A stretch of 64,000 nucleotides of DNA from Gemmatimonadota bacterium. Lineage in GTDB: Bacteria > Gemmatimonadota > Gemmatimonadetes > Gemmatimonadales > Gemmatimonadaceae. The first letter of the stretch is position 1; every line of letters starts with the position of its first letter. Positions 10,173 through 63,405 of the stretch are shown piece after piece. Position numbers and translations under genes: made by a program. The notes beneath the pieces were generated by a model. The model did no database searches. It had not been told where the DNA came from and saw nothing but the letters and a program-made list of their open reading frames with translations. Location: positions 62,001 to 126,000 of the forward strand of contig JAJTGR010000033.1 of assembly GCA_021299375.1 (NCBI GenBank), read 5' to 3'.

Positions 10173-10199
10173 TAAAGGTTTCGCGACCGCCACCGAGAC
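10173..10199 (+). promoter_or_regulatory. Sigma-28 (FliA) type promoter of flagellin
   Basis: The elements TAAAGGTT and ACCGAGAC are separated by 11 bases, close to the FliA consensus TAAAGTTT-N11-GCCGATAA. The site ends 81 nt before the flagellin ATG. Its -10 is weaker than in the other three FliA-type sites of this window, and its spacing is one base shorter. Confidence 0.6.
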
Positions 10200-10280
10200 T
10201 GATGCGGTGACTGGGACCCCGATCGTCGGACCCAGAAGGGGCACGGACGCCCCGGACATCCCATCACGGAGGATACACGC

Positions 10281-11054
10281 ATGCGTATCAACACCAACGT
10301 CGGCGCGCTGACCGCTTCCCGCAACATCTTCGTCAACCAGATGGCGACGGAAGGCAGCATGCGGAAGCTCAGCTCGGGTCTTCGCATCAGCCGCGCGGCG
10401 GACGACGCGGCCGGTATGTCGATCGCCAACAAGCTGCGTACGCAGAGCCGTTCGCTCAACCAGGCGGCGGCGAACGCCGAGCAGGGCAACGCCATGCTCC
10501 AGATCGCGGAAGGCGCGGCCCAGACCATTCAGCGCATTCTCGAGCGTCAGAAGGAGCTCGTCACGCAGAAGCTGAACGGCACCAGCAGCAGCACGACCAC
10601 GGACACGGTCGAGAGCGAAATCGGCAAGCTCTCGGCGGAAGTGGAGCGCATCATCAACATCACCACGTTCCAGGGGTCCTCGGTCTTCGGTTCGCTGGCG
10701 TTCCAGGTGGCTGAGCAGGATTCGGACGGGACGGTCACGATTGATGCCGGTCTGGCCGTTGCCGACGTGAGCCTGGCCGACAGCGCCAGCCTGCAGGATG
10801 TCGACGACGCGATGGACGCCATCAACGAGACCCTCGCGAACATCGGTGCCGGCCAGAACGTGCTGGACTACGTCACGCAGAACCTCAAGTCCACCGTGGT
10901 GAACCTCCGCGCGGCGGAATCGACCATCCGCGACGTGGACATGGCCGAGGAGATGGCCACCTTCACCAAGAACAACATCCTGCAGCAGGCGGCGCAGGCG
11001 ATGCTGTCGCAGGCGAACCAGGGAGCACAGGGCGTCCTGTCGCTCTTGCGGTAA
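10281..11054 (+). CDS. fliC: Flagellin (filament subunit)
   Basis: This 257-residue protein has the conserved N-terminal D0/D1 helices (MRINTNVGALTASRN, then LSSGLRISRAADDAAGMSIA) and a C-terminal half ending TKNNILQQAAQAMLSQANQ and VLSLLR. That is the full flagellin signature. It is short for a flagellin: the surface D2/D3 region is almost absent, leaving only a Ser/Thr-rich stretch around residues 99-107 (GTSSSTTTDT) and an Asp/Ala-rich segment near 150-175. GGAGG stands eight bases before the ATG. It is exported by the flagellar type III system and polymerises outside the cell. The upstream sigma-28 promoter and downstream hairpin make it a single-gene unit. The Ser/Thr stretch could be an O-glycosylation site for the neighbouring TPR transferases (inference). 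Confidence 0.97.
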   Translation: MRINTNVGALTASRNIFVNQMATEGSMRKLSSGLRISRAADDAAGMSIANKLRTQSRSLNQAAANAEQGNAMLQIAEGAAQTIQRILERQKELVTQKLNGTSSSTTTDTVESEIGKLSAEVERIINITTFQGSSVFGSLAFQVAEQDSDGTVTIDAGLAVADVSLADSASLQDVDDAMDAINETLANIGAGQNVLDYVTQNLKSTVVNLRAAESTIRDVDMAEEMATFTKNNILQQAAQAMLSQANQGAQGVLSLLR

Positions 11055-11081
11055 GGTAGGCGGTTCCCTTCGCAGTGAACG

Positions 11082-11112
11082 ACCCCGGGGTTGGCTTGGC
11101 CAACCCCGGGGT
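11082..11112 (+). terminator. Strong hairpin between flagellin and fliD
   Basis: A perfect 14-bp stem (ACCCCGGGGTTGGC with its complement) encloses a TTG loop, 27 nt after the flagellin stop. There is no T-run after it. It would end or attenuate the abundant flagellin transcript and protect its 3' end, while allowing some read-through into fliD. Confidence 0.8.
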
Positions 11113-11143
11113 ATGGCCTTAGTGACGTGACGGAGAGGACGGC

Positions 11144-13207
11144 ATGACCACCATCAACTTCAGCGGGCTGAGTTCGAGCATCCAATGGGGTGACGTCGTC
11201 GACTCGACGATCAAAGCCATGGAAGCGCGGAGCGTGCAGCCGCTGACCACGCAGATCGAGCGACGTGCCGCGCAGAAGGCGGCGTGGAACACGTTCCGGA
11301 CACTCGTCGATAACCTGAACAGCAGCGCCTTGGCACTGCGTCGTCCGGGGATTGGCGGATTCACGACGATGGTGCCCACGAGCCCGGCCACGGGTCGGGC
11401 CCTGCTGACGGCCACGGCCAATTCGGCGGCCACGCCCGGCAAGAGCCGGGTGGAAGTCCTGCAGCTGGCCGATGCGGCGAAGCTGTCGGGTGGCTCCGTC
11501 GCCGACGTGAATGCTGCGCGCAACCTGACGGGCGCCTTTTCGATCAACGGCACACAGATTGCCATTGACCCGGCGGATTCGCTGCGCGCCATTCAGGCCA
11601 AGATCAACAGCGCCAACTCCGGCGCCACCCCCACGGGCGTCACGGCGTCCATCGTGAGCGAGGGGCCAACGGCCGGTCGGCTCGTGCTGACGTCTACGTC
11701 GGGCAGCGCCAATGCGATTCAGCTCACGGATGGCACCGGTGGCATGGCCCGCGAACTCGGGCTGCTCGACACGCGCTCGAAGCCCATCTCGTCGGCCGTG
11801 CAGTCGGTGGCGGCCGCCATGGGCATGTCGGTGTGGCCCCAGCCGGCGCAGATCCGCGTGGGCAGCACGGTGATCACCGCCGACCTTTCCACCGATTCGC
11901 TGGCGGCGATCGCTGCGCGCATCAATGCGGCGGGTGGTGCGGCGTCGGTCGAGTCGGAGCAATACGGAAGCGAAACCCGGTTCCGGCTCGCGGTCGACGG
12001 CAACGTATCGGCCATGGACGGGGACGCCGATTCGGCCGATATCGTGGCGGCACTCGGCTTTGCGGCCGGGCAGCCGGGACGCGTTCCGCAGACGGTCCAG
12101 TCGCCGCTGCTCACCAGCGCGGGCGGCGGGGCCGCCACGGCCGCCACGGCGCTCACGGCGCTCGGAGTCGACGGCACACCGACCGGGCTCGCGGCGGGGG
12201 ATGCCATCAACATTCGTGGCGTGCGTGGTGACGGCACATCCGTCAACTTCGGCCTGATCGTGCAGCCTGGCGATACCGTGCAGACGCTGCTCGAGCGGTT
12301 CAACGATCCGGTGACCGGCCTCAAGAGCGGAGCGCGCACGGCCACGGCCAGCCTTGGCCCTGATGGCCGCATTCGGGTGACCGACGATACCGGCGGCCCC
12401 TCGAAGCTGTCGTTCTCGATGAGCATCACGCGCGCCGACGGCAGCACCGCCCCCATCGGCAGCACCACCGTGTCGGTCGCTGGCCGCAGTCGCGCGCTGC
12501 AAGAAGGGAAGCAGGCCATCGTCCTGGTGGATGGCCGTGAGGTGCGCCGTGCGTCCAACACCATCTCCGACGCCATCGCTGGTGTCACCCTCAACCTCAC
12601 CAACGCCGAGCCGGGGACGACCATCGACGTCACGGTGGATCGCGACCGGGCGACGGCGGAGGACACCATCCAGAAGTTCGCGGACGCGTTCAACGCGATC
12701 CGCCGGTTCTTCGACGAGCAGCGGCAGCCGGACAGCCCGCTGTATGCCAACTCCTCGCTGCGCCGGGTCGTGGACTCGTTCACGGATGCCCTGCGCACCA
12801 GCGTGTCGACGAACGCGACCTACCGCTCGCTCGCCGTGTCCGGTCTCGCGCTCGATCGCAATGGCCTCCTCACGGTGAACAAGGACACCGTGTCGAAAGC
12901 CCTCGCCGAGAAGCCGGAAGAACTCGAAGCCCTGTTCGGCTTCTCCGGCGTAGGGACGGCCTTTGTGACCGCTACCGACAACGCGACGCGGTTCAGCACC
13001 GGGACCATCGCCACCCAGCTCACGAGTATCGACTCCAGCACGCTGACGCTGCGTCGTCGCGAAGGTGAGGCCAGGAGCCGGCTCGACGTCCGCCGTGAGC
13101 AGCTCGTCCAGCAGTACACCCGCATGGAGGAGGTGGTGTCCCGACTCAGGGCCCAGAGTAGCTCCCTGCTCGGCTCCCTCGGCGCACTTCAGACCAAGGA
13201 TCGGTGA
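11144..13207 (+). CDS. fliD: Flagellar hook-associated protein 2 (filament cap)
   Basis: This 687-residue protein begins TTINFSGLSSSIQWGDVVDSTI, the conserved FliD N-terminus, and ends in heptad-rich helices (QYTRMEEVVSRLRAQSSSLLGSL) that form the D0 coiled coil of the cap. Between them are beta-rich domains with repeated AxxINAA and VNTA-type segments. A RSLAVSGLALDRNGLLTVN element near residue 565 is typical of the FliD C-terminal domain. The protein caps the growing filament and folds exported flagellin. GGAGAGG lies eight bases upstream of the ATG. It is longer than E. coli FliD (468 residues), as is common outside Enterobacteria. A fliS-type chaperone gene follows after 56 bp. Confidence 0.93.
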   Translation: MTTINFSGLSSSIQWGDVVDSTIKAMEARSVQPLTTQIERRAAQKAAWNTFRTLVDNLNSSALALRRPGIGGFTTMVPTSPATGRALLTATANSAATPGKSRVEVLQLADAAKLSGGSVADVNAARNLTGAFSINGTQIAIDPADSLRAIQAKINSANSGATPTGVTASIVSEGPTAGRLVLTSTSGSANAIQLTDGTGGMARELGLLDTRSKPISSAVQSVAAAMGMSVWPQPAQIRVGSTVITADLSTDSLAAIAARINAAGGAASVESEQYGSETRFRLAVDGNVSAMDGDADSADIVAALGFAAGQPGRVPQTVQSPLLTSAGGGAATAATALTALGVDGTPTGLAAGDAINIRGVRGDGTSVNFGLIVQPGDTVQTLLERFNDPVTGLKSGARTATASLGPDGRIRVTDDTGGPSKLSFSMSITRADGSTAPIGSTTVSVAGRSRALQEGKQAIVLVDGREVRRASNTISDAIAGVTLNLTNAEPGTTIDVTVDRDRATAEDTIQKFADAFNAIRRFFDEQRQPDSPLYANSSLRRVVDSFTDALRTSVSTNATYRSLAVSGLALDRNGLLTVNKDTVSKALAEKPEELEALFGFSGVGTAFVTATDNATRFSTGTIATQLTSIDSSTLTLRRREGEARSRLDVRREQLVQQYTRMEEVVSRLRAQSSSLLGSLGALQTKDR

Positions 13208-13263
13208 CCGATACTCCGCAGTAGCGCAGCATCGATCCCTCCTCGACTCAACACCCTGCCCCA

Positions 13264-13674
13264 ATGTCCTACGCCAGCCAGACGTCGTCGTATCGCGAGA
13301 TGGAAATTCATTCGGCGTCGCCCGAGCGTCTCCTGGTCATCGTGTTCGAGCAGCTGGTGGTCAACCTCGAGCGGGCCCGCCTCGCGATGGAGCGCCACGA
13401 CATCGAGCTGCGCGTGGTTTCGCTCACCCGGGCACGCAACCTCGTGGCGGAACTGCTTGCGACGCTCGACTTCGAGCAGGGTGGGGCGATCGCGGTGGAG
13501 CTGGCCAACCTGTATCAGTTCATGCTGATGGCGCTGGTCGACGTCGGGACTCGACGGGACGTGGTCACCATGCGCAAGCTGGTGAACATCGCGTCGCACT
13601 TGCGCGACGGATTCATCGGAGCGGCGCAGCAGCTCGCGGCCGAAGGCGCCACCGGGCGCCGGCGGTCGGCATGA
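13264..13674 (+). CDS. fliS: Flagellin export chaperone FliS
   Basis: This 136-residue protein is an all-helical member of the FliS family. The diagnostic region is HSASPERLLVIVFEQLVVNLERAR (in part ASPERLLVIVFEQLV), equivalent to the ASPEKLIxMLYDGAI motif that contacts flagellin, and the length matches. It binds the C-terminal D0 helix of flagellin in the cytoplasm and prevents premature polymerisation. It follows fliD by 56 bp and overlaps the next gene by four bases (ATGA). An ACCGATAC sequence at 13207-13214 resembles the -10 of the FliA sites of this window, but no -35 is seen, so separate transcription is unproven. Confidence 0.92.
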   Translation: MSYASQTSSYREMEIHSASPERLLVIVFEQLVVNLERARLAMERHDIELRVVSLTRARNLVAELLATLDFEQGGAIAVELANLYQFMLMALVDVGTRRDVVTMRKLVNIASHLRDGFIGAAQQLAAEGATGRRRSA

Positions 13675-14180
13675 GCCAGCGCCATCCGGTCGCGCCGTTG
13701 CAGCGGGAGACGTCGTCGTCGACGGCGGCGCCCGAGGCCGCCACCGCTGCGGCTGATCGCTCGGCGGTGGCACGCGAAGCCCTGGCCCTGTGTGCCGGCG
13801 CCGATGCGCTGGCCCGTGAGGCCGAGTCCGTGATCGCCTCCCGCACCAACGAGGACCGGCTTCTCGCCGTGCTTGAACGGCGGGATGAACTGGTGCAGGA
13901 CCTTGCCGAGCAGCTGGCCCTCCTGCGATTCGAGCGGCCACGCGCCGACAGTCCCCTGTTGGCGGACACCGAGCGGTTGGTGGCGGCGGCAGATGCGGTC
14001 GTGGACGAGGTGTGCGCGGCCGTCTCGGCGACGCAGCGGCGGACCCTCGATCTTGCGGCGCGGATGGCCCGCCGGACCGAGGAGATCCGTGCCGAACTGG
14101 ACGAGGTGCAGCGGGCCGTCACCGCCAGTGTCGGCTATGGCATCGGATCGGCTCCCCACTTCGTCGATCGGGTGCGCTGA
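13671..14180 (+). CDS. Putative FlgN-like flagellar chaperone
   Basis: This 169-residue, mostly helical protein starts with an ATG that overlaps the fliS stop (ATGA). A low-complexity Ala/Ser/Thr head of about 35 residues is followed by long charged helices such as VLERRDELVQDLAEQL and RRTEEIRAELDEVQRAV. FlgN and FliT chaperones have this coiled-coil character, and a gene of this kind commonly follows fliS or flgM. I see no diagnostic motif, so the name rests on context, length and helical content. Its position between fliS and flgM strongly supports a flagellar role, probably chaperoning hook-associated proteins FlgK/FlgL. Confidence 0.65.
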   Translation: MSQRHPVAPLQRETSSSTAAPEAATAAADRSAVAREALALCAGADALAREAESVIASRTNEDRLLAVLERRDELVQDLAEQLALLRFERPRADSPLLADTERLVAAADAVVDEVCAAVSATQRRTLDLAARMARRTEEIRAELDEVQRAVTASVGYGIGSAPHFVDRVR

Positions 14181-14182
14181 CC

Positions 14183-14521
14183 ATGCCCGGTCAGCCCGAA
14201 CGCTTCGACCACCTGCTGCAGCAGAAGCTCGACGAGCTCGATGCCGCGGCGGCGGAGGAAGCGTGGCTGGAGGTCGACGCCGTGGAGCAGCTCCGACTGC
14301 GGGCCGCCCACCTGGTCACGGGCGAAGAGGGGCGACGCTGGCCGACCGGGGCCGCCGTGCAGTTTCAGCAGGACCCAGGGGCCCAGCGGCCGGCGCCCCC
14401 GGTACTCGACATCCGCTACCCCGCGCGTCGGGCGGCCGAGCCGGTGGCCGGGGGCGGTGCAGAGACTTCCCCTCAGCGACCGGGGCGTGGCATTCCGCGA
14501 TCTGGAACACCGTCGCAGTAA
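14183..14521 (+). CDS. Hypothetical protein between FlgN-like gene and flgM
   Basis: A frame of 112 codons starts with the ATG at 14183, two bases after the preceding stop (TGACCATG). The first half is helical and acidic (FDHLLQQKLDELDAAAAEEAW, read here as KLDELDAAAAEEAWLEVDAV). The second half is Pro/Arg/Gly-rich and looks disordered. I do not recognise a family. The tight spacing suggests it is co-translated with the FlgN-like gene. Its TAA stop lies inside the -35 element of the flgM promoter, so the frame ends exactly where the next unit's control region begins. The composition of the second half leaves some doubt that it is a real gene. Confidence 0.45.
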   Translation: MPGQPERFDHLLQQKLDELDAAAAEEAWLEVDAVEQLRLRAAHLVTGEEGRRWPTGAAVQFQQDPGAQRPAPPVLDIRYPARRAAEPVAGGGAETSPQRPGRGIPRSGTPSQ

Positions 14522-14546
14522 AGTTTCCCGGCGATGCTGCCGATAG
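14519..14546 (+). promoter_or_regulatory. Sigma-28 (FliA) promoter of flgM-cheY-cheZ
   Basis: TAAAGTTT and GCCGATAG are separated by 12 bases. Fifteen of the sixteen element positions match the enterobacterial FliA consensus TAAAGTTT/GCCGATAA, the closest match of the four sites in this window. The site lies 26 nt before the flgM ATG, and its first three bases are the stop codon of the preceding frame. FlgM, the anti-sigma-28 factor, would be under its own target's control, as in enteric bacteria. Confidence 0.85.
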
Positions 14547-14572
14547 TCCCATGTTGAGGAGGAGGAAACCCC

Positions 14573-14857
14573 ATGAAGATCAACGGCTACATCGATTCCC
14601 TGCGTCCGACGCCGGCGAGCACCCCTGCCGTCCAGCGTTCGACTCAGGACGTCCCAGCAGTATCGGCCCCGCGGCCGGTCAAGTCGGACTCGGTCCAGAT
14701 CTCGGAGGCGGGCCGGCGTCTGAACGCCGAAGCGCGCGAGGCGCTCGACCCCGAGCGGGTGACCGAGTTGCGGCAAAAGGTCCTGTCCGGCGCCTACAAC
14801 ACCCTCGACGTGGTGGATCAGGTGGCTCGACGCATTCTCACGCGTGGCGACCTCTAG
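14573..14857 (+). CDS. flgM: Anti-sigma-28 factor FlgM
   Basis: The 94-residue length and layout match FlgM: an unstructured N-terminal half, SDSVQISEAGRRL at about 42-54, and a C-terminal helical part (VTELRQKVLSGAYNTLDVV) that in known FlgM binds sigma-28. FlgM holds FliA inactive until the hook-basal body is complete and is then exported through it. AGGAGGAGG lies seven bases before the ATG. The near-perfect sigma-28 promoter immediately upstream predicts autoregulation: FliA makes its own inhibitor. cheY follows after 42 bp. Confidence 0.92.
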   Translation: MKINGYIDSLRPTPASTPAVQRSTQDVPAVSAPRPVKSDSVQISEAGRRLNAEAREALDPERVTELRQKVLSGAYNTLDVVDQVARRILTRGDL

Positions 14858-14899
14858 TCGCGGCGCCAACCCTTCCGGCCACTCCAGGAGATCGGCGGC

Positions 14900-15271
14900 A
14901 TGAAGTTCCTTGTGGTGGACGACTCGGCGACCATGCGTCGAATCGTCATCAATTCGCTCCAGCGCATCGGCTACAACGACACGGTCGAAGCCGGCGATGG
15001 GCAGGAAGCGCTGGCCAAGTTCGACGCGTCCATCGGGTTCGTGATCACCGACTGGAACATGCCGAACATGACCGGCACCGAGTTCACCAAGGTCCTGCGC
15101 GCCCGTGCCGACGGACGCCAGATCCCGGTCCTCATGGTCACCGCCCGCTCGGTCAAGGAAGATATCCTGACCGCGATGGAAGCCGGCGTGAACAACTACA
15201 TCGTCAAGCCCTTCACCCCCCAGGTCCTCAAGGAGAAGATCGACGCGCTCCTGCCTGCGGCGGCTGCCTGA
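14900..15271 (+). CDS. cheY: Chemotaxis response regulator CheY
   Basis: This 123-residue, single-domain receiver has all key positions: D7-D8 (VVDDS), phosphorylated D51 in TDWNMPNMTG, T81 and K103 (VKPF). Phospho-CheY binds the flagellar switch (FliM) to change rotation. The DWNMP sequence is that of true chemotaxis CheY proteins. AGGAG is placed ten bases upstream of the ATG. It sits between flgM and cheZ with short gaps and is probably transcribed from the sigma-28 promoter at 14519. A second receiver gene, at 20492, has different motifs. Confidence 0.95.
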   Translation: MKFLVVDDSATMRRIVINSLQRIGYNDTVEAGDGQEALAKFDASIGFVITDWNMPNMTGTEFTKVLRARADGRQIPVLMVTARSVKEDILTAMEAGVNNYIVKPFTPQVLKEKIDALLPAAAA

Positions 15272-15283
15272 GGACATGAGCCA

Positions 15284-15964
15284 ATGAGTGACACCCGTGC
15301 CCAAGCGGCATACCACGACTCCGAAGCGGCGCTCCGCCTGGTGGACAAGGAGCTGGACCAGCTCCGTGAAACTCCCGCCGCTGCGCAGCGTCTCATCATG
15401 GTCAGCCTCGCCGACCTGCCGCAGATCCTCGAGCGTGCCAACAGTCAGATTCGGGAAGTGCTCACGCACCTTCGCGAGACGCGGCAGGCCATCCAGTCCA
15501 CGACGCTCGACAAGATCCAGACCACGCACGACAAGCTCAAGGAAGTGACGTCGGCCACCGAGGATGCCGCGACCAACATCATGGACGCCTGCGACCGGGC
15601 CAACCAGATCGTGGATGAACTCGATGCCGTCGATGCCGCCGAGGTGCCGGATCGGCAGCGGGCGACCGACCTTCGGGCCACCTTGCGCGACGAGCTCTTC
15701 ATGATGATGGGCGCGCTGCAGTTCCAGGACATCACCTCGCAGCAGCTCACCCATGCTTCGTCGATGCTGATCGACATGGAGTCCCGGCTGGCGGACATCT
15801 CGAAGCTCTTCGACTCGAGCATTTCGCCCGACCGTCCCCTTGCGTCGATGCGCGGGGCACCAGACGAGAAGACCTACGATCCGAATGCGACGATCCGCAA
15901 CGCCGAACAGCGGCAGCATCTTGTCGACGAGATCTTCACCACGGTGAAGGCCGGCGCGGCCTGA
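15284..15964 (+). CDS. cheZ: CheY-P phosphatase CheZ
   Basis: This 226-residue helical protein carries the CheZ active-site block ELFMMMGALQFQDITSQQL. D149 and Q153 align with the catalytic D143 and Q147 of E. coli CheZ. The long N-terminal helices and a C-terminal tail (NATIRNAEQRQHLVDEIF) fit the four-helix hairpin dimer plus CheY-binding peptide. It speeds loss of phosphate from CheY-P. It follows cheY by 12 bp, supporting the assignment. CheZ is best known from Proteobacteria; here it coexists with a CheX-like phosphatase gene at 20868. A hydrophobic membrane segment is absent. Confidence 0.92.
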   Translation: MSDTRAQAAYHDSEAALRLVDKELDQLRETPAAAQRLIMVSLADLPQILERANSQIREVLTHLRETRQAIQSTTLDKIQTTHDKLKEVTSATEDAATNIMDACDRANQIVDELDAVDAAEVPDRQRATDLRATLRDELFMMMGALQFQDITSQQLTHASSMLIDMESRLADISKLFDSSISPDRPLASMRGAPDEKTYDPNATIRNAEQRQHLVDEIFTTVKAGAA

Positions 15965-16052
15965 TCGCCGAGCGCCCTTGCTCACTCAACGGCCCGCACA
16001 AGCATGTGAGGGCCGTTCGTGTCTGCGGGACCGACAACACCGAGGTCGGTGG

Positions 16053-16080
16053 TAAACCTCCGGCGGGGTCGGCCCGATAC
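16053..16080 (+). promoter_or_regulatory. Sigma-28 (FliA) promoter of cheA
   Basis: TAAACCTC and CCCGATAC are separated by 12 bases, the same spacing as at flgM and cheW. Ten of the sixteen element positions match the FliA consensus, including the TAAA and CCGATA cores. It lies in the 177-bp gap after cheZ and ends 61 nt before the GTG at 16142, which argues that cheA starts at that GTG and not at upstream codons. Confidence 0.68.
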
Positions 16081-16141
16081 TGCCCACCGAGGCGAGTGTC
16101 CGCGTGGACGCTCCCGTCGAGACCTTCCTGCGCCATTGCCC

Positions 16142-18448
16142 GTGTCTCCTTTGAACCTCGATGACGCCGCCACGCTGCTGATGCAGCTCGAAGCGACAGA
16201 TACCGCCGACCTCTCGGTGCTGCGGGATGCGCTCACCGACCTCGCGTTCGAAAATCGCGTTCCCCTTCGCGCCCAGCCGCTGGTGGCCAAGGCCGCCCGC
16301 GTGCTTGGCACGATCGTGAACGGGACCGCGACCGATGTCACGGCGGCGTTCACCGAGGTGGGTCAGGTCATCGAGGAGGCCATGCGGGTCAGCGACCTGT
16401 ACGGCATGACTGCCGTCGCGACCGATCCGATGGCTGGCGCGATGGGGGAGGCGGTCGATGGGGCGAACGGCCTCCCCGTTGCTTCGGGGGGGGAGCATGC
16501 CAGTGACGACCACGCCAACCAGGCCGGCCAGCCGCCGGCCCAGGCGCTCGCGGCGACGGCGCCGGTTCCGGCCCCGCTGGCTCCCGCCGCGTCCGCCCAG
16601 GCGGAAGCGCCCACGGCGCCCGTTCCCACGGCGCCCGCGCCGACGCGATCGGCCCAGCACGATGTCGGCGCTGACCGCCTGCCCGACGACGCCGATCGCG
16701 TCCTGCTCCCCGAGTTCATCACGGAAAGCCACGAGTGCGTGACCAACTCCGAGGCAGCGCTCCTCCAGCTTGAGGAGAATCCGACCGATGAGGAAGCCGT
16801 CAACACCGTGTTCCGTGCGTTCCATACGGTGAAGGGCACCTCGGCATTTCTCGGGCTCACCCGCATCGCCGCCTTCGCCCACGAGGCCGAGTCGCTGCTG
16901 AGCCGGGTGCGCGACCGGGAGATCAATTATACCCGCGGCTGCGCCGACCTGTCGTTGCGCAGTGTGGACATGCTCAAGGAGCTGCTCTCGTCGGTCGAGG
17001 TCGCGCTACAGGGCGACGGTCGGCTGCCGCTCCCCGCGGGCTACCACGAGCTGCTTGACGCCCTGGCGGGCTATGACCCCGCCCGCGACGCCGCGGGGGT
17101 GGCCCTTGGCGCTGCCGCGGCAGCGGGCGATGACATCTTCCCTGCGGTGTCGTCGACCGGCACTCGCGGCGCTGCCGACCCGGCCGCGCCCCCAGCGGCT
17201 GGCCAGGTGGCCGCTGCCACCCGCAAGGCCAGTGACTCCAACGGCGACGCCACGATCCGCGTCCGGACCGATCGCCTCGATCGTCTCGTCGACATGGTCG
17301 GCGAGCTGGTGATCGCGCAGTCCATGATCGCCGGCGACGACGCCTTCGGCAGCGGCACCCAGCATGAACTGCTCCGCAAGGTGGTGCACGCCGGCAAGAT
17401 CGTGCGGGAGCTGCAGGACCTCAGCATGTCCATGCGCATGGTGCCGCTGCGTACCACCTTCCAGAAGCTCGCGCGCGTGGTCCGCGACACGGCCATGAAG
17501 GCCGGCAAGTCGGTGCAGTTCGTCACCGATGGCGACGACGTCGAGATCGATCGCACGCTGGTCGACCGCCTGAGCGATCCCCTCGTGCACATGGTGCGCA
17601 ACGCGGTGGATCACGGGGTGGAGCCGCCACACGAACGCACCGCCAACGGCAAGGCCGGCACCGGCGTGGTCCGCCTGCGCGCCTTCCACGCATCGGGCAA
17701 CGTGGTCGTTGAACTGATCGACGACGGCCGCGGCCTGCATCGCGACAAGATCGTGAAGAAGGCGATCGAGAGGGAGCTCATCGAGTCCGACAAGGGCTTG
17801 AGCGACAGCGAGGTGTTCAACCTCATCTTCGCGCCCGGCTTCTCCACCGCGGACAAGATCACCGACATCTCCGGTCGCGGGGTCGGCATGGATGTCGTGC
17901 GCCGCAATCTCGAGGAGATCCGGGGGCGTATCGACATCACGTCAGCGCCGGGCCAGGGCACCACGTTCGCGATCCGGCTGCCGCTGACGCTGGCGGTCAC
18001 CGACGGCATGCTCGTGCGCGTGGGCGAGGAACGGTTCATCGTGCCGCTCACGCACATCCACATGAGCTTCCGCCCCGAGCCGAGCATGCTCTCGACGGTG
18101 GTGGGCAAGGGCGAGATGGTGCTGCTGCGCGGCGAACTGATGCCGATCGTGCGCCTCCACCGCCTCTTCGACGTGCCGAATGCCGTGGAGAACCCGCTCA
18201 AGGGCCTGCTCATGATCGTCGGCGATGGCACACGGCGCACGGCGTTGCTCGTCGACGATCTGCTCGGCCAGCAACAGGTGGTGGCCAAGGCACTCGGGGA
18301 CGGCCTGGGCAAGGTTGCGGGGGTCAGTGGGGGGGCGATCCTCGGCGATGGCCGAGTGGGCCTTATCGTCGACGTGAACGAGACCGTGGCGCTCGCCCAG
18401 TCCGGCGAACCCCCGCCATCGCGCCACGAGCGCGCCACGGCGGCGTGA
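16142..18448 (+). CDS. cheA: Chemotaxis histidine kinase CheA
   Basis: This is a 768-residue kinase. An N-terminal helical domain of about 85 residues precedes a long Ala/Pro linker. The P1 phosphotransfer domain lies at about 186-290, with H228 in FRAFHTVKGTSAFLG. P3 dimerisation (DRLDRLVDMVGELVIAQ) begins near 375, then P4 kinase motifs VHMVRNAVDHG, DDGRGL and GRGVGMDVV, and a CheW-like P5 to the end. I see no CheY-binding P2 domain; the P1-P3 stretch is short and Ala/Gly-rich. The frame is open upstream to 16019, but the sigma-28 promoter at 16053-16080 makes the GTG at 16142 the likely start, although no ribosome site is clear. It phosphorylates CheY and CheB in receptor arrays. Confidence 0.93.
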   Translation: MSPLNLDDAATLLMQLEATDTADLSVLRDALTDLAFENRVPLRAQPLVAKAARVLGTIVNGTATDVTAAFTEVGQVIEEAMRVSDLYGMTAVATDPMAGAMGEAVDGANGLPVASGGEHASDDHANQAGQPPAQALAATAPVPAPLAPAASAQAEAPTAPVPTAPAPTRSAQHDVGADRLPDDADRVLLPEFITESHECVTNSEAALLQLEENPTDEEAVNTVFRAFHTVKGTSAFLGLTRIAAFAHEAESLLSRVRDREINYTRGCADLSLRSVDMLKELLSSVEVALQGDGRLPLPAGYHELLDALAGYDPARDAAGVALGAAAAAGDDIFPAVSSTGTRGAADPAAPPAAGQVAAATRKASDSNGDATIRVRTDRLDRLVDMVGELVIAQSMIAGDDAFGSGTQHELLRKVVHAGKIVRELQDLSMSMRMVPLRTTFQKLARVVRDTAMKAGKSVQFVTDGDDVEIDRTLVDRLSDPLVHMVRNAVDHGVEPPHERTANGKAGTGVVRLRAFHASGNVVVELIDDGRGLHRDKIVKKAIERELIESDKGLSDSEVFNLIFAPGFSTADKITDISGRGVGMDVVRRNLEEIRGRIDITSAPGQGTTFAIRLPLTLAVTDGMLVRVGEERFIVPLTHIHMSFRPEPSMLSTVVGKGEMVLLRGELMPIVRLHRLFDVPNAVENPLKGLLMIVGDGTRRTALLVDDLLGQQQVVAKALGDGLGKVAGVSGGAILGDGRVGLIVDVNETVALAQSGEPPPSRHERATAA

Positions 18449-18505
18449 TCCGCCGTAGGGCGCCCGGCCTCGCGGCCCCGGCACCAAGGTCCCAGTCCCA
18501 GACAG

Positions 18506-18533
18506 TGAAGCGCGGACGGCTGGGCGCCGATAC
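18506..18533 (+). promoter_or_regulatory. Sigma-28 (FliA) promoter of the cheW-cheB operon
   Basis: TGAAGCGC and GCCGATAC are separated by 12 bases. The -10 differs from consensus only in the last base; the -35 has TGAA in place of TAAA. It ends 53 nt before the cheW ATG, in the 138-bp gap after cheA. Confidence 0.65.
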
Positions 18534-18586: not shown

Positions 18587-19084
18587 ATGCGTACGCAGTC
18601 CGACACCGCCACTCTCACGCCGTCTCGCGCCGGCAAGTATCTCACCTTCTTCCTCGCCGGCGAGGAGTACGGGCTCGAGATCCTCAAAGTGAGCGAGATC
18701 ATCGGCCTTCAGCCCATCACGCGTGTGCCCCGGATGCCGGAGTTCGTCCGCGGCGTGATCAACCTGCGCGGCAAGGTCATCCCGATCACGGACCTGCGCA
18801 TGAAGTTCGGCATGGACGCCCGGGATTCCGAGGACAGCTGCATCATCGTGGTCCAGATGAGCGGCGTACAGACCGGCATCGTGGTCGATCGGGTGAGCGA
18901 GGTGGTGGCCGTCGCCGAGGCGGACATCGAGGATGCGCCCACCTTCGGGGCTGGCATCCGGACCGAGTTTCTGCTCGGCATCGGCAAGACGGGTGGCCGC
19001 GTCAAGCTACTGCTCGATATCGACAAGGTGCTGGCCACGAGCGAGCTGGCGGCGCTCGAGTCGGCGCAGACGCACACGGCCTGA
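18587..19084 (+). CDS. cheW: Chemotaxis coupling protein CheW
   Basis: This 165-residue protein is a single CheW domain: TFFLAGEEYGLEILKVSEII near the start, the conserved LPRMPEFVRGVINLRGKVIPI-type loop (here RMPEFVRGVINLRGKVIPI), and GIVVDRVSEVVAV. It couples chemoreceptors to CheA at the membrane array. It opens a compact run cheW-cheR-cheD-receiver-cheX-cheB with gaps of 38 bp or less or with overlaps. No chemoreceptor gene lies in the window. The sigma-28 promoter upstream places it in the late flagellar class. Confidence 0.95.
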   Translation: MRTQSDTATLTPSRAGKYLTFFLAGEEYGLEILKVSEIIGLQPITRVPRMPEFVRGVINLRGKVIPITDLRMKFGMDARDSEDSCIIVVQMSGVQTGIVVDRVSEVVAVAEADIEDAPTFGAGIRTEFLLGIGKTGGRVKLLLDIDKVLATSELAALESAQTHTA

Positions 19085-38948: not shown

Positions 38949-39605
38949 GTGCGCACCCTGATGGCCCGCGCCGAACCGCTCGTTCGGCGCTGGGTGCGGC
39001 CGGCGCTGTGGGCGCTGGTCGTGCTGCCGGCCCCCGTCCTCGTGCTCCAGCTGCTCCTCGACCAGCTTGGGGCCGACCCCATCGACAAACTCGAGCGCCT
39101 TTCCGGCGAATGGGCCCTGCGTTTCCTGGCGGGGTCCCTGGCCGTCACGCCCCTCATGCGGCTTACCAGCTGGGGGTGGCTGGTGGCCCAGCGCCGTTTC
39201 CTCGGGCTGGCGGCGTTCTTCTGGACGCTCGGGCACCTGAGCATCTACACGGTGCTCGACTGGTTCTTTGACTGGGACGAAATCATCAAGGACGTGCTGG
39301 AGCACCTGTACATCACGCTCGGCATGCTGGCCTTCGTCCTGATGATTCCGCTCGCGCTCACGTCCACCAAGGCATCCATCCGCCGGCTGGGAGGCGCCCG
39401 CTGGAACCGCCTCCACGCGCTCGTCTATGCGTCGGTCATCGCCGCGTGCCTTCATTTCTTCTGGGCAGTCAAGAAGGACGTCGAGGAGCCGATACTCTAC
39501 AGCGTGGGGGTGGCCGTCCTGCTGGCGTTTCGGGTGTTCCGGCGCCCGGTGCGGCGACCCCCGTCCGGCGGTCGCCCCGCCGACTCCCCGGTGGCGGCTG
39601 CGTGA
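38949..39605 (+). CDS. msrQ: Haem-binding membrane subunit of methionine-sulphoxide reductase
   Basis: This 218-residue integral membrane protein is of the ferric-reductase-like MsrQ (YedZ) group. About five to six helices can be traced, including RRFLGLAAFFWTLGHLSIYT, HLYITLGMLAFVLMIPLAL and LHALVYASVIAACLHFFWAV. The histidines in LGHLS, LEHLY, RLHAL and CLHFF are the likely haem ligands. It passes quinone-derived electrons to MsrP across the membrane. It starts with GTG four bases after msrP. The C-terminus is a Pro/Arg-rich tail of about 25 residues. Confidence 0.92.
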   Translation: MRTLMARAEPLVRRWVRPALWALVVLPAPVLVLQLLLDQLGADPIDKLERLSGEWALRFLAGSLAVTPLMRLTSWGWLVAQRRFLGLAAFFWTLGHLSIYTVLDWFFDWDEIIKDVLEHLYITLGMLAFVLMIPLALTSTKASIRRLGGARWNRLHALVYASVIAACLHFFWAVKKDVEEPILYSVGVAVLLAFRVFRRPVRRPPSGGRPADSPVAAA

Positions 39606-52939: not shown

Positions 52940-55608
52940 CACGAGGCGCAGGGTCAACCTGGTGGGTGCTGAGCGCCGCGACTCTGGTCGCGGCGCTCGT
53001 CGCTCGTGCCCATGTTGCGGTGGCGCAGGTTGCCCCGGAACGTGGCGCGGCGGCACTGGGCTCCACGCTGGCGGGCATTGGCACCACGGGGCGCGTGCTC
53101 ACGGTGGCCGCGCACCCCGACGATGAGGACACCCCCATCATCGCGTGGCTGGCGCGTGGCCGGCATGTGGAGACGGCGTACCTCTCGCTCACGCGCGGCG
53201 ACGGCGGGCAGAACCTCATCGGCAACGAGCTCGGCGAGGCGCTGGGCGCTATCCGCACGCAGGAGCTGCTGTCGGCGCGGCGCATCGATGGCGGCACGCA
53301 GTACTTCACGCGCGCCTACGACTTCGGCTTCAGCAAGCACGCCGAGGAGACGTACACGCACTGGCCCAAGGATTCGATTCTGGGCGATGTGGTGCGGGTG
53401 GTGCGCGCGTTTCGCCCGCATGTGATGGTGGCGTTCTTCAGCGGCACGCCGCGCGACGGGCATGGGCATCATCAGGTGAGTGGGCTGCTCGCGCGCGAGG
53501 CGTACGACCTGGCCGGCGACACGGTGCGTTTTCCCGTAAAGGACTTCGGGCTCCCGTGGACGCCGCTCAAGTTCTACCGCAGCGCGCGGCAGGCGCCTGA
53601 CAGCGCCACGCTTCGCGTGAACACGGGTGAACACAACGCCCTGCTGGGCCGCAGCTGGTACGAGATTGCCGCTGAAAGCCGGTCGCAGCACAAGAGTCAG
53701 GGGTTCGGCGTGCTCCAGCGAAAGGGTGTGATCTGGGGGTATCTCGCGCGTGAAGCGGCGCGCCGCGGGCCGGCCGATCCGCGGGCCGAGCGGTCGCTGT
53801 TCGACGGTGTGGACACCACGTGGGCGGCGTTGCGCTCTGCGGTCCCGGCACCTGCGCAGGCGGCGCTGGATTCAGCGCTCACTGCGGTAGCAGCAGCGCG
53901 GGCGATGTATCGCGCCGAGGACCCGGCGCCGGTGGTGCCACGGCTCGCCGACGCGTTGCGGCACGTTCGCGCCGCGCGCAGCGTCTGGCGCAACGGCCCG
54001 GGGCTGTTGATTGCCGGACGCCCCGGGGCGCCGTCGTCGCTCTCGCGCCGGTCGCCCGACGAAGCGCCGCCGGCGGTGTGGGACGCGCTCACCACGACCA
54101 TCGAACGCACCGAGCAGGCGCTGGTGCTCGCCGCCGGCGTGGTGGTGGAGGCCACGGCACCGCGGGCCACGTTCCCGGTGCGCGAGTCGGTGAAGGTGGC
54201 GGTGAACGATTCGCTGCCGGTGACGGTCACGGTGTTCAATCGTGGTGCGGCGCCGGTGCGACTCCGCAATGCGTCGGTGGCCGGGTTGGGGCTGCGCCCC
54301 GGCGAGACGGGCGACCTGACCATCGCCCCCGACAGCGCGGCGGTGCTCAATCGCTGGGCGGTAGCGTATGCGTCCAACTCGCCGTGGTGGCGCGCCTATG
54401 GCCGCAAGCAGCAGGACTGGTTCCAGGCGCCTATCGATGCGCGCAACGAGGCACAACAGCAGGCGCAGCGGGCCACGCTGGTGGAGGCGCGACTCGAGAT
54501 CGCGGGGCAGTCGGTCTCGGTGAGTGCGCCCGTGGTGTATCGCTACGCCGACCCGATCAAGGGCGACCAGCAGGTTCCGGTGAGCGCGGTGCCCGGCATC
54601 ACGGTGAATCTGGCGAGTGCCATGGAATACATCCGTGCCGGTGTCCCGGTGGAGCGACTGGTGCCGGTGCGGCTGCAGTCGAGCTATCCGCACGAGGCCA
54701 AGGTCACCGTGCGGCTGGAGCTCCCCGAGGGGCTCAAGGCCGACAGCACCGAGCGGGAACGCACGCTGGGCCCCGATGGCAGCGCCATCGTGACGTTCCG
54801 CGTGCGCGGTGTGGTGAAGGAAGGCCAGCTGCAGCTGGTGGCGATGGCGCTGCATGACGGCACCATGAGCACCAACGGGTCGTATCTCATCAGCTACGAT
54901 CACATCGCCTCCATGCGTCTGTACGGCGGGTCGGGGATGTACCTGTCGGCGGTGAAGGTGGCGCTGCCGCCGCGGGCCCGGGTGGGCTACATCAAGGGCG
55001 TGGGGGACACCGGTCTCGAGGCGCTTGAGCAGCTGGACATCGCGGTCGAGAAGATCGAACCGGCGATGCTGAGTGCCACTGATCTGTCGCGCTTCACGAC
55101 CATCGTGGTGGGGCCGCGCGCGTATGAGTCGAGCGAGGTGCTGGTGCGGCAGAATGCGCGCCTGCTGGACTATGCCAATCGCGGCGGGACGCTGGTGGTG
55201 CAATACGGCGCGCAGAACATGAACGCGCTGGCCAGTGTGTTGCCGTATCCGCTGCAGTGGGCGCCGCGGGCGGCGCGCGTGACGATGGAAGACGCACCGG
55301 TCACCGTGCTGCGGCCGACGCATCCGCTGCTCACGACGCCCAATCGCATCGGCGCCACCGACTGGGCGGGGTGGGTGCAGGAGCGGTCGACATACATGCC
55401 GAGTGTGATCGACAAACGCTACACATCACTGCTGCGCATGAACGATCCGGAGGAGCCGGCGAACGACGGCGCGCTGCTCGTGGCCCCGGTGGGGAAGGGG
55501 CGGTACGTGTACGTCACGCTGGCCTTGTTCAGACAACTGCCGGCGGGGGTGCCGGGGGCGGCGCGCCTGCTGGCGAACTTGGTATCGGGGGTGCCGGTGG
55601 TGCAGTGA
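52936..55608 (+). CDS. Secreted PIG-L family deacetylase with C-terminal GATase-like domain
   Basis: This 890-residue protein has a signal peptide ending near AVAQV (about residue 30). The LmbE/PIG-L N-acetylglucosaminyl deacetylase domain follows, with the zinc motif AHPDDE (59-64) and a later HGHHQVSG near 175. Residues ~400-600 form beta-sandwich domains. The last ~250 residues (GVGDTGLEALEQLDIAVEKIE in part as GDTGLEALEQLDIAV, and GGTLVVQYGAQNM) resemble a class I glutamine-amidotransferase-like fold without an evident nucleophile. I prefer the GTG at 52936, which overlaps the sucA stop. It is probably periplasmic and acts on an acetylated sugar or glycan. Confidence 0.88.
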   Translation: MTRGAGSTWWVLSAATLVAALVARAHVAVAQVAPERGAAALGSTLAGIGTTGRVLTVAAHPDDEDTPIIAWLARGRHVETAYLSLTRGDGGQNLIGNELGEALGAIRTQELLSARRIDGGTQYFTRAYDFGFSKHAEETYTHWPKDSILGDVVRVVRAFRPHVMVAFFSGTPRDGHGHHQVSGLLAREAYDLAGDTVRFPVKDFGLPWTPLKFYRSARQAPDSATLRVNTGEHNALLGRSWYEIAAESRSQHKSQGFGVLQRKGVIWGYLAREAARRGPADPRAERSLFDGVDTTWAALRSAVPAPAQAALDSALTAVAAARAMYRAEDPAPVVPRLADALRHVRAARSVWRNGPGLLIAGRPGAPSSLSRRSPDEAPPAVWDALTTTIERTEQALVLAAGVVVEATAPRATFPVRESVKVAVNDSLPVTVTVFNRGAAPVRLRNASVAGLGLRPGETGDLTIAPDSAAVLNRWAVAYASNSPWWRAYGRKQQDWFQAPIDARNEAQQQAQRATLVEARLEIAGQSVSVSAPVVYRYADPIKGDQQVPVSAVPGITVNLASAMEYIRAGVPVERLVPVRLQSSYPHEAKVTVRLELPEGLKADSTERERTLGPDGSAIVTFRVRGVVKEGQLQLVAMALHDGTMSTNGSYLISYDHIASMRLYGGSGMYLSAVKVALPPRARVGYIKGVGDTGLEALEQLDIAVEKIEPAMLSATDLSRFTTIVVGPRAYESSEVLVRQNARLLDYANRGGTLVVQYGAQNMNALASVLPYPLQWAPRAARVTMEDAPVTVLRPTHPLLTTPNRIGATDWAGWVQERSTYMPSVIDKRYTSLLRMNDPEEPANDGALLVAPVGKGRYVYVTLALFRQLPAGVPGAARLLANLVSGVPVVQ

Positions 55609-60550: not shown

Positions 60551-63405
60551 TGGGCGCTCCGAAACAAGCCAGTAGTGGGCAGCGTGAGCTCCGCCCCGAA
60601 CCGTGAACTGGGCAGGGCCCGCACGGCGCCACCGCTACTGATGGTCAGGAACTTGTCGGTGACGTTGTACACGTAGAACGAAAGGCGTCCGTTGCCGGCA
60701 ATGGATTTCGCGACCTGCAGGGTCATCACCCAATCATCCGGTGAGGTGAAGCGGCCGGCGATGGTGCTGGCACGTTGTTGCCGCAGGTCGCGAAACTCCG
60801 AATCGAGCCGCCGCTCAGCGGGCACCGGTACCAGAGTCCCGTTTCGCGTCAGATACCCCGCAAACGATACCGAGTCGGTGGGTGCAAACGTCTGCCGTGA
60901 TTCGCCGAGCCGTTGCTGCACCGTGGCCGTGAGCACCATGCCGAGGTCCGGCTGATGGTGGACCAATCGCCACGTCAGGATTGAACGCGTCGATGTCGTC
61001 GAGAGTCCTTCGTAGTACGCGACCCAACGGATGCCGGTGTCCAGTTGGAATTCCCCGAGCCGGTTGGCCGGACCGAAGTTGCGGTCGTCGGTCACGAAGT
61101 CGGTGGTAATCTGTGCCCCGTTTACCTCCAATCGCGTACGAAGCGCAGGGATGACCGGCAACGTCACCGTGAACTCCACGCCGTGGCTGCGGAGTGTGCC
61201 GCCATTGGCGAAACGGTCGAGGAAAATGGGAATGTCGTCGAAGCTAAGCGGCGGATCGACGATGCGTCCCGGCTGTCCAGTGCCGATGCCGGTATCGGCG
61301 AGCGCGTATCGTGCGCGTTGCAGCGAGGTCGGCTCACGGCGCAGCGTGACTGCGCCGGTGATGCGATCATCAAACCACACGGCGTTGATCGCGCCTCGAC
61401 GCATGCCGCCGTCGAGCTCAAATCCGAACTCCTGCTTCCTGGCCCGAGACAAGCCAAGCGATTCGTTGCGAGGATCGCGAATGAATGTCGTGATGACGGC
61501 GAGTCGCTCGGCGGGATTGGGCGTGTAGCGATTGACGTTGACGAGATCGTAGAACTGCTTCGCAGGATTCAGTTGCGCGACGCTGGGTGCCTTGCTCACC
61601 ACGCCGACGCCGCCTCGCAGTCGCGCCCATGGCCGTGGTGAAATCTGTGTCACCAATCGTGGCTGTAACTGCGCTGAACGGATCCCATCGCCCCATCCTC
61701 GCTCGTGCAACGATTCGAGCCGCAGCCCGGGCTGCACTTCGACGTGCAACCCGCCAAGCCGCGTGGCGACGCGAGTATCCACATAGGCGCCGGTGGTGGC
61801 CAGAGGCGCAATGATGGCAAAGTTCCGGGGACGATCATAACCGGACGTGCCGTTGAATGGACTCGCCTGCGGTGGACGGGCAATGTCGAACTGGTAGCCA
61901 ATCCCATCATTCCACTCGCGTCGCGCCTCGGCGCCGATGCGTAGTTGCGCGGCCACGGCGCCGCGGCGGTTTCGCTCCCACTCCAGCCGAGAATAGAGCA
62001 GTCGTGGCGCCCCCTCGATGGAGTACGCACCAGAATAGGGGCCCTCGACATACGACCCGATGTTGCGCCCTTCCTCCAATCGATCCGTGAAGGGCGTCGT
62101 CGGACGTGACAGGATGCGTGACTCGCGGGTGGTTTGTTCGGTGCGATCCAGTGCGCCCGTCCATTCCAGCAAGCCGCCCGCCAATGCCAGTCGCGCGCGA
62201 GTGCCGAGGCGCAGCCCGCGGTCGTTTTGAAATGAGTTGCGCCCGGGTTCGAGATCGATGCGCTCGGGGGCATCAAAGCGGAGTTGCCACCAGTCGAGAC
62301 GCGAATCGAGGCTGAAGCGCGGTGTGGTACCGGCGGTATTGCGGATGTCGGGAACGGCGCCTAGTTGCAACCGATAGGCCACCTGGCCCGCGCCGCGAAT
62401 GATCGACGTGCTGCTGAGCGTGCGGGCGCTGCGCGTTTCGGCAACGTTTCCGGTGATGGTCAGCGCATGCCGGTCCGATGCGAAGGCGCGACCTCCCACA
62501 ACATTCCCCTCGGCAGTCCGGGGATCGAATCGGCCGGCAAACTCCGGTGAGGCAGCGGCCGCACGCGTGTCCACGATGATAGCACCCTGCGTAAGGTCTC
62601 CCCAGCGCGCCGAGGGGATGCCGCGAATGACTTCCACTCGTTCGAGGGTCGAGGCCGGAATGCGCCGCAGGTCGACACCGCCTCCCGCCGTCGAGGCGCT
62701 CGGGGCAATCTCACCGCGTGCACCGATGCCCTGCAGATTAGCATTGTTGGACAACGGGACGCCGTCGAGCACGATGAGCGTGCCAGCGGCGCCGATATCG
62801 CCGGCTGAGGGACCGTTTACGCCGCCGGCGCCGCCCAAGCCATTTTGCGCCAGCGCCCGAAGCGAGAACTGCGCGCTGGCGTCGAGTCCGGGCGGCTGGA
62901 GTGGCGTACCGGGAATGAGCTCCAGCACGCCTTGCAGGCTCGCGGCGATCTGATTTGCAATGGCGTCACGGTCAATGACGCTGGCGCTTCCCAATTCCCC
63001 GCGTGCGCGACCGGACTGATCGGCGGTGACGATCAGTTGGTCGAGCTGCAAGGCGCTCGTGGCAATGATGAGATCGAGGGTCACGCTTCCCGTGACAGGA
63101 ACGGTGAGCGGCGTTCGGCTGGGGGCGAAGCCGAGTCGTCTGGCTGAGAGCACCTGCGGCCCCGGCGGGGCATTTCGCAGAGTGTAACGTCCGAGTGAGT
63201 CTGTTCGCGTCTGGAGCGCTGTCCCCTCAAGGGACACGGTAGCGCCCGCAAGTCCTGTCGCGCTTCCGCGCACGCGGACAATCCCGGTGATCAGAGTCCC
63301 AGTATCCTGCGCCGCGGCGAGCGGTGCACGCAGCACGAGCGCGGCGCCTGCAACACAGACGGCAATGAGAAGTCTCACGGCGGCGGGCTGGCGCGAGGAA
63401 GGCAT
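60547..63405 (-). CDS. TonB-dependent receptor with N-terminal CarboxypepD-regulatory domain
   Basis: This 952-residue protein has a signal peptide ending near AAAQD (about 1-33). A carboxypeptidase-regulatory-like beta-sandwich follows in about 38-115 (ITGIVRVRGSATGLAGATVSLEG, in part GLAGATVSLEGTA), then a plug domain with LIVLDGVPLSNNANLQGI and LERVEVIRGIPSARWGD, and the barrel. SusC-like systems have this layout, but no SusD-like gene is here. The DUF4876-like lipoprotein may play the lid or partner role (inference). It ends on GLFRSAQ and its stop overlaps the next gene. Upstream, 311 bp of non-coding DNA hold two palindromes that could be operators. Confidence 0.88.
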   Translation of the reverse strand: MPSSRQPAAVRLLIAVCVAGAALVLRAPLAAAQDTGTLITGIVRVRGSATGLAGATVSLEGTALQTRTDSLGRYTLRNAPPGPQVLSARRLGFAPSRTPLTVPVTGSVTLDLIIATSALQLDQLIVTADQSGRARGELGSASVIDRDAIANQIAASLQGVLELIPGTPLQPPGLDASAQFSLRALAQNGLGGAGGVNGPSAGDIGAAGTLIVLDGVPLSNNANLQGIGARGEIAPSASTAGGGVDLRRIPASTLERVEVIRGIPSARWGDLTQGAIIVDTRAAAASPEFAGRFDPRTAEGNVVGGRAFASDRHALTITGNVAETRSARTLSSTSIIRGAGQVAYRLQLGAVPDIRNTAGTTPRFSLDSRLDWWQLRFDAPERIDLEPGRNSFQNDRGLRLGTRARLALAGGLLEWTGALDRTEQTTRESRILSRPTTPFTDRLEEGRNIGSYVEGPYSGAYSIEGAPRLLYSRLEWERNRRGAVAAQLRIGAEARREWNDGIGYQFDIARPPQASPFNGTSGYDRPRNFAIIAPLATTGAYVDTRVATRLGGLHVEVQPGLRLESLHERGWGDGIRSAQLQPRLVTQISPRPWARLRGGVGVVSKAPSVAQLNPAKQFYDLVNVNRYTPNPAERLAVITTFIRDPRNESLGLSRARKQEFGFELDGGMRRGAINAVWFDDRITGAVTLRREPTSLQRARYALADTGIGTGQPGRIVDPPLSFDDIPIFLDRFANGGTLRSHGVEFTVTLPVIPALRTRLEVNGAQITTDFVTDDRNFGPANRLGEFQLDTGIRWVAYYEGLSTTSTRSILTWRLVHHQPDLGMVLTATVQQRLGESRQTFAPTDSVSFAGYLTRNGTLVPVPAERRLDSEFRDLRQQRASTIAGRFTSPDDWVMTLQVAKSIAGNGRLSFYVYNVTDKFLTISSGGAVRALPSSRFGAELTLPTTGLFRSAQ

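Follow-up and report, generated by a model that had tools for sequence, protein, structure and literature searches.

We searched a window of 64,000 nucleotides (positions 62,001 to 126,000 of contig JAJTGR010000033.1, assembly GCA_021299375.1) from a Gemmatimonadota bacterium and found four sites, before the flagellin gene fliC, the anti-sigma factor gene flgM, and the chemotaxis genes cheA and cheW, that are very probably sigma-28 promoters of late genes, recognized by the flagellar sigma factor FliA. This assignment follows from three lines of evidence: the genome encodes both FliA and FlgM, the sites are conserved in relatives, and a matrix made from the relatives' sites predicts other late genes. 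The four predicted promoters are as follows, with unlabeled coordinates here and below referring to the window.

10173..10199, + strand: predicted sigma-28 promoter of fliC; -35 at 10173-10180, 11-base spacer, -10 at 10192-10199; TAAAGGTT-N11-ACCGAGAC
14519..14546, + strand: predicted sigma-28 promoter of flgM; -35 at 14519-14526, 12-base spacer, -10 at 14539-14546; TAAAGTTT-N12-GCCGATAG
16053..16080, + strand: predicted sigma-28 promoter of cheA; -35 at 16053-16060, 12-base spacer, -10 at 16073-16080; TAAACCTC-N12-CCCGATAC
18506..18533, + strand: predicted sigma-28 promoter of cheW; -35 at 18506-18513, 12-base spacer, -10 at 18526-18533; TGAAGCGC-N12-GCCGATAC

Direct reading of the sequence places all four where an earlier sequence-only reading had put them, three of them with the 12-base spacer it described and the fliC site with 11. 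Its description of the -10 as ending in GCCGATAC/G is one letter off for cheA, whose -10 is CCCGATAC and not GCCGATAC. The -35 of every site contains TRAA; among the relatives T1, A3, and A4 are nearly invariant, and position 2 is A, C, or G. The -10 contains CCGATA at flgM, cheA, and cheW, while that of fliC, ACCGAGAC here and in many relatives GACGACAC, matches GCCGATAA only in part and is the weakest among the four. The cheA site falls within the longest possible cheA frame, which starts at 16019. An in-frame GTG at 16142, which does not vary among the aligned sequences, is thus most likely the cheA start, which places the site upstream of the gene.

The shared TRAA and CCGA cores noted by the sequence-only reading are indeed present, but on their own they are not selective. 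The pattern TRAA-N13..18-CCGA has 13 matches on both strands of the window against a mean of 9.68 in Markov-1 copies, 28 of 150 of which reach 13, and we dropped this coarse core as a test because its frequency is at chance level. Such counts are what would be expected if a GC-rich genome, rich in TRAA...CCGA pairs, had simply supplied sites that were selected for lying near interesting genes, and the fliC site, which matches the coarse pattern only, is unremarkable by itself. However, the longer form TRAA-N17-CCGATA has exactly three matches in the window, the flgM, cheA, and cheW sites, where a mean of 0.03 is expected and none of the 150 copies reaches three. This enrichment of at least 50-fold, the conserved position of the sites in relatives, and the predictive power of the matrix make an origin by chance extremely unlikely; for the fliC site, the support is conservation in relatives.

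We aligned the upstream regions from the window and from loci L005-L022 and L026 (19 loci), wherever the genes were present, which gave 12 sequences for fliC, 17 for flgM, 18 for cheA, and 19 for cheW. The nearest relatives by CheA are metagenome-assembled genomes, mostly labeled Gemmatimonadaceae or Gemmatimonadota. Loci L023 and L024, labeled as other phyla, and L025, which covers only the cheA end and downstream sequence, were omitted from the alignments, the spacer counts, and the matrix. In the alignments of all four genes, both elements stand out as conserved islands, whereas the flanks and the spacer sequence vary. With spacer length left free between 8 and 16 bases, the fliC site has a spacer of 11 in 12/12 genomes, all 12 with TCAAGTTC/TAAAGGTT as the -35, and the flgM site has a spacer of 12 in 17/17. 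The cheA spacer is 12 in 15 of the 18 sequences and 11 in 2, with 1 tie, and the cheW spacer is 12 in 15 of the 19 and 11 in 2, the other 2 being weak (L012 and L026).

FlgM was detected in 49 of 200 Gemmatimonadota genomes, at 51 places, 50 of which we examined (the second place in genome G172 was left out). A site scoring at least 18 is present at 43 of these 50 places, 42 of them with a spacer of 11 or 12, compared with 10 of 1,440 random 190-base chunks of the window's genome. The spacer is 12 at 24 of the 50 places, 11 at 18, and 16 at 1, probably by chance, and 7 places have weak sites only. At flgM, the 12-base spacer is universal among the 12 genomes of genera g1 (the window's genus) and g24. 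Both lengths also occur within one genome, 11 at fliC and flgL and 12 at flgM, cheA, and cheW. The proposal that the 12-base spacer is a lineage-specific FliA motif therefore holds for three promoters and, at flgM, genus-wide, but it fails as a fixed trait of FliA, given the invariant 11 at fliC and the 24-to-18 division at flgM across the phylum. The best reading of these sequences is that spacers of 11 and 12 would both be accepted, with the choice inherited gene by gene. A strict link between a strong -10 and the 12-base spacer fails, since flgL pairs TCCGATAC with a spacer of 11. Our literature search, mostly without subscription journals, found no measured tolerance of sigma-28 promoters for a 12-base spacer, the available portion of PMC12282069 included.

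The FliA gene lies 33 kb upstream of the window (C110:28700-29374; TIGR02479, 210.5 bits against a cut-off of 189.6), in the main flagellar block near flhA (PF00771) and flhF- and flhG-like frames, which we named by sequence and order. FliA is above the cut-off in 25 of 39 genomes of the family. FlgM, encoded between the fliC and cheA sites, clears its Pfam cut-off narrowly (26.9 versus 25).

To predict further late genes, we used a matrix of 45 relatives' sites at flgM, cheA, and cheW, none from the window's genome, and scanned upstream of 211 predicted genes in that genome. These genes came from 202,052 bases comprising the window and stretches around flagellar and chemoreceptor genes and are not a random sample. 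A score of at least 9 was reached by 7 of 15 non-training late genes, chosen by function after the scan scores were known and including all eight detected chemoreceptors, and by 6 of the 193 remaining genes (Fisher p 3e-6); the seven are the second cheA, flgL, fliC, and four chemoreceptors. The area under the curve is 0.80; none of 300 column-permuted matrices attains this value, and on the opposite strand the area drops to 0.44. The highest-scoring sites, apart from those of the three training genes and of an HDOD/EAL gene described further on (19.8), are listed below.

Contig C41: second cheA, matrix score 22.8
Contig C41: small frame, matrix score 21.3
Contig C48: protoglobin chemoreceptor, matrix score 18.6
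Within cheR, before cheD: site with matrix score 15.6
Contigs C109, C77, and C24: chemoreceptors, matrix scores 15.3, 14.9, and 9.2
DUF6733 gene: matrix score 14.5
flgL: matrix score 11.5, spacer 11, -10 TCCGATAC
fliC: matrix score 11.4
Second cheY: matrix score 11.3
Gene at 52966: matrix score 9.4

The single-contig genome G022, from the same genus, also has a site before flgL (spacer 11, TCCGATAC, matching the one here) and a spacer-12 site upstream of its counterpart (orthologue) of the C24 chemoreceptor. As a separate observation, the C77 chemoreceptor (L064:2474-3730) seems split, with its 4HB sensor part and signaling domain in different open frames, which may reflect a frameshift or an assembly error. 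The strand preference of the matrix also bears on whether the conserved blocks could be regulator operators or parts of an RNA rather than promoters. The blocks are known from DNA comparison alone, and the fliC leader does hold an RNA element (see below), but operators or RNA parts are a very unlikely explanation for two distinct blocks that are set 11 or 12 bases apart, lie on the sense strand, and are at a promoter-like distance from the start codon.

Eleven exact matches to the spacer-12 pattern occur genome-wide, five of which precede flgM, cheA, cheW, the second cheA, and one chemoreceptor. The other six lie 78 bases 5' of an HDOD gene, 65 bases 5' of a Big_1 gene, 194 bases 5' of a gene with a weak TPR match, and, in three cases, within predicted genes. 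Among six exact spacer-11 matches, one is before flgL and one before the unknown small C41 frame, and those at window position 39469 and in L067, L068, and L070 show no link to late genes. Two signaling genes carry sigma-28-like sites with a 12-base spacer: the HDOD gene (L029:400-1449, contig C39), with a site at -78 scoring 21.8, and an HDOD/EAL gene adjoining motB (L056:15494-16756, contig C110), with a site at -145 scoring 19.8. Both are possible new late-class signaling genes. The secreted-looking Big_1 (Ig-like) gene (L034:773-1462, contig C107) has its sigma-28-like site, spacer 12, 65 bases before the start, and its orthologue in G022 (L173) has one 64 bases before the start with a spacer of 11 instead.

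Several results weigh against assigning the sites to FliA. In the matrix scan, flgK, fliD, and fliS had no site at a score of 9, nor did half of the eight chemoreceptors, and the best score upstream of motA was -1.1. Pattern counts do not separate 25 FliA-positive from 14 FliA-negative genomes, at 1.07 versus 0.79 per Mb for spacer 12 (p 0.14) and 0.75 versus 0.73 per Mb for spacer 11; these similar counts indicate that most genome-wide exact matches are background. For spacer 12, a control with the reversed pattern sets the baseline too low, as FliA-negative genomes exceed it too. The relatives are interrelated, and their conservation counts are not independent events: loci L005/L006 and L013/L019 are near duplicates, and L020 and L021 share one genome, which overstates the number of independent events. 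Finally, genome G024 (L016) has flgM and cheW sites and no FliA over the cut-off (E up to 10). Its cluster contig contains flgL, fliW, and a sigma-54 activator and none of the main flagellar block, and the genome is 95% complete; its FliA may lie in an assembly gap.

The G024 case could also be taken to favor another sigma-70 family factor, housekeeping or RpoS-like, with the sigma-28 resemblance being secondary, and the window's genome does encode several further factors of this family. However, the invariant parts of the sites (TnAAGTT and GCCGATA) are the sigma-28 ones, the genes picked out are the flagellar and chemotaxis set, and FliA is present both in this genome and widely in the family, which leaves another factor a very unlikely reader of these sites and argues for FliA. 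The idea that chemotaxis genes are late-class is supported for cheA, cheW, the second cheA, and half of the eight chemoreceptors but not for the remaining four, and motA, which had been proposed alongside the chemoreceptors as a candidate, has no site. By this test, chemotaxis genes appear largely late-class and motAB does not.

Given established knowledge of FliA and FlgM, the following order of events can be proposed for this organism. A sigma-54 activator gene (PF00158; L055:10636-12126) has the flgB end of the main block on one side and flgL on the other. Sigma-54-like sites occur on the - strand at L055:10415, L054:5726, L054:11338, and L054:13581, before the flgB-side gene, flgF, flhA, and fliQ. 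The early flagellar genes are probably sigma-54 dependent and would be read first, before the FliA-dependent late step. FlgM would hold FliA during hook and basal body assembly; upon hook completion, FlgM would be exported, and FliA-RNA polymerase would initiate at the four sites and turn on the late genes. This set would include fliC, flgL, flgM-cheY-cheZ, cheA, cheW (with cheR-cheD-cheY-cheB by operon read-through), the second cheA, and roughly every other chemoreceptor gene. The cheY and cheZ genes are probably transcribed with flgM from the flgM site.

A further element in the fliC leader suggests control of flagellin at the level of translation.

10238..10253, + strand: fliC leader hairpin GGGGC-ACGGAC-GCCCC, CsrA-type (ANGGA in the loop), from the alignment

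The loop ACGGA is invariant in 13/13 sequences, and the stem is 100% paired with two compensatory changes. A second ACGGA, found in many aligned sequences, lies at the fliC ribosome-binding site (10266-10270), and the genome contains both csrA (C110:21395-21550) and fliW (C110:55396-55746). We considered the hairpin GGCACGGATGCC as a sigma-54 promoter and rejected it, because its GG-to-GC spacing is too short for a sigma-54 promoter and its arms covary as a stem. PMC4894983 describes, for Campylobacter jejuni flaA, a leader hairpin with ANGGA in its loop and another ANGGA where the ribosome binds. The layout here is the same as in the CsrA-FliW control of flagellin mRNA in C. jejuni and Bacillus subtilis, with csrA and fliW both present, although it occurs in a different phylum and is predicted from sequence alone. 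Control of flagellin at the mRNA is thus likely here, and CsrA-FliW control of its translation is predicted for Gemmatimonadota, a phylum for which our literature search found nothing on this system.

The window is part of the 193-kb contig C110 in a genome of 4.48 Mb, 116 contigs, and 96% completeness. A run of genes on the + strand from 10281 comprises fliC, fliD, fliS, an unnamed frame, flgM, cheY, cheZ, cheA, cheW, cheR, cheD, a second cheY, and cheB, and the fliC-cheB order is conserved among relatives. The unnamed frame occupies the flgN position and had no match in the Pfam scan; names of cluster genes without a Pfam scan rest on sequence and gene order. The genes next to the four sites are as follows.

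10281..11054, + strand: fliC, flagellin, 257 amino acids; PF00669 and PF00700
14573..14857, + strand: flgM, anti-sigma-28 factor, 94 amino acids; PF04316
14900..15271, + strand: cheY-like receiver, 42 bases 3' of flgM, without its own site; named by sequence and order
15284..15964, + strand: cheZ-like phosphatase, without its own site; PF04344, 28.9 bits, slightly below the cut-off of 30.7
16142..18448, + strand: cheA, from its likeliest start, a GTG triplet invariant in 18 aligned sequences
18587..19084, + strand: cheW; PF01584, 131.6 bits

One aligned locus, L026, is a contig in a metagenome-assembled genome labeled Candidatus Kuenenia stuttgartiensis. It shares the fliC-che order, its proteins are 53-86% identical, and the flgM and cheA sites are the same too; its presence there is probably a binning error.

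Sigma-28 regulons are well known, and what is new is the instance in the little-studied phylum Gemmatimonadota, with two spacings. In Escherichia coli and Salmonella, flgM is a FliA target too, and the sigma-D promoters of B. subtilis have the same element types and serve a late flagellar regulon with FlgM. As in the class 3 promoters of E. coli and Salmonella, whose targets include flagellin, cheA, cheW, and chemoreceptors, the sites here combine TAAAGTTT and GCCGATAA elements. They differ in the 12-base spacer at flgM, cheA, and cheW, in having C or G rather than A at -10 position 8, and in having A, C, or G at -35 position 2. For E. coli, the consensus appears as TAAAGTTT-n11-GCCGATAA in PMC2859248, and the FliA targets named in PMC4183435 include tar-tap-cheRBYZ and motAB-cheAW. 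E. coli transcribes motAB with cheAW as a FliA operon, whereas motA here lacks a site. Our literature search found no paper on the flagellar sigma factor of Gemmatimonadota, which is weak evidence of absence, as most subscription journals were outside its coverage.

A speculative and, in our judgment, rather unlikely extension is that the spacer is a gene-specific, selected setting in Gemmatimonadota (11 at fliC and flgL, 12 at flgM and the chemotaxis genes in the genus), through which one sigma factor would give two strengths or times of late expression. In this reading the regulon would also include genes outside the usual set, the two for HDOD signaling proteins and the one for the secreted Big_1 protein, which has a conserved site in another genome of its genus, G022. 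More generally, the motif TVAASYTn-N11/12-GCCGATAS provides a tested predictor of late flagellar genes in Gemmatimonadota. It also suggests that sigma-28 promoters can retain a 12-base spacer as their conserved form; scanning for the enteric consensus would overlook such sites or score them too low.

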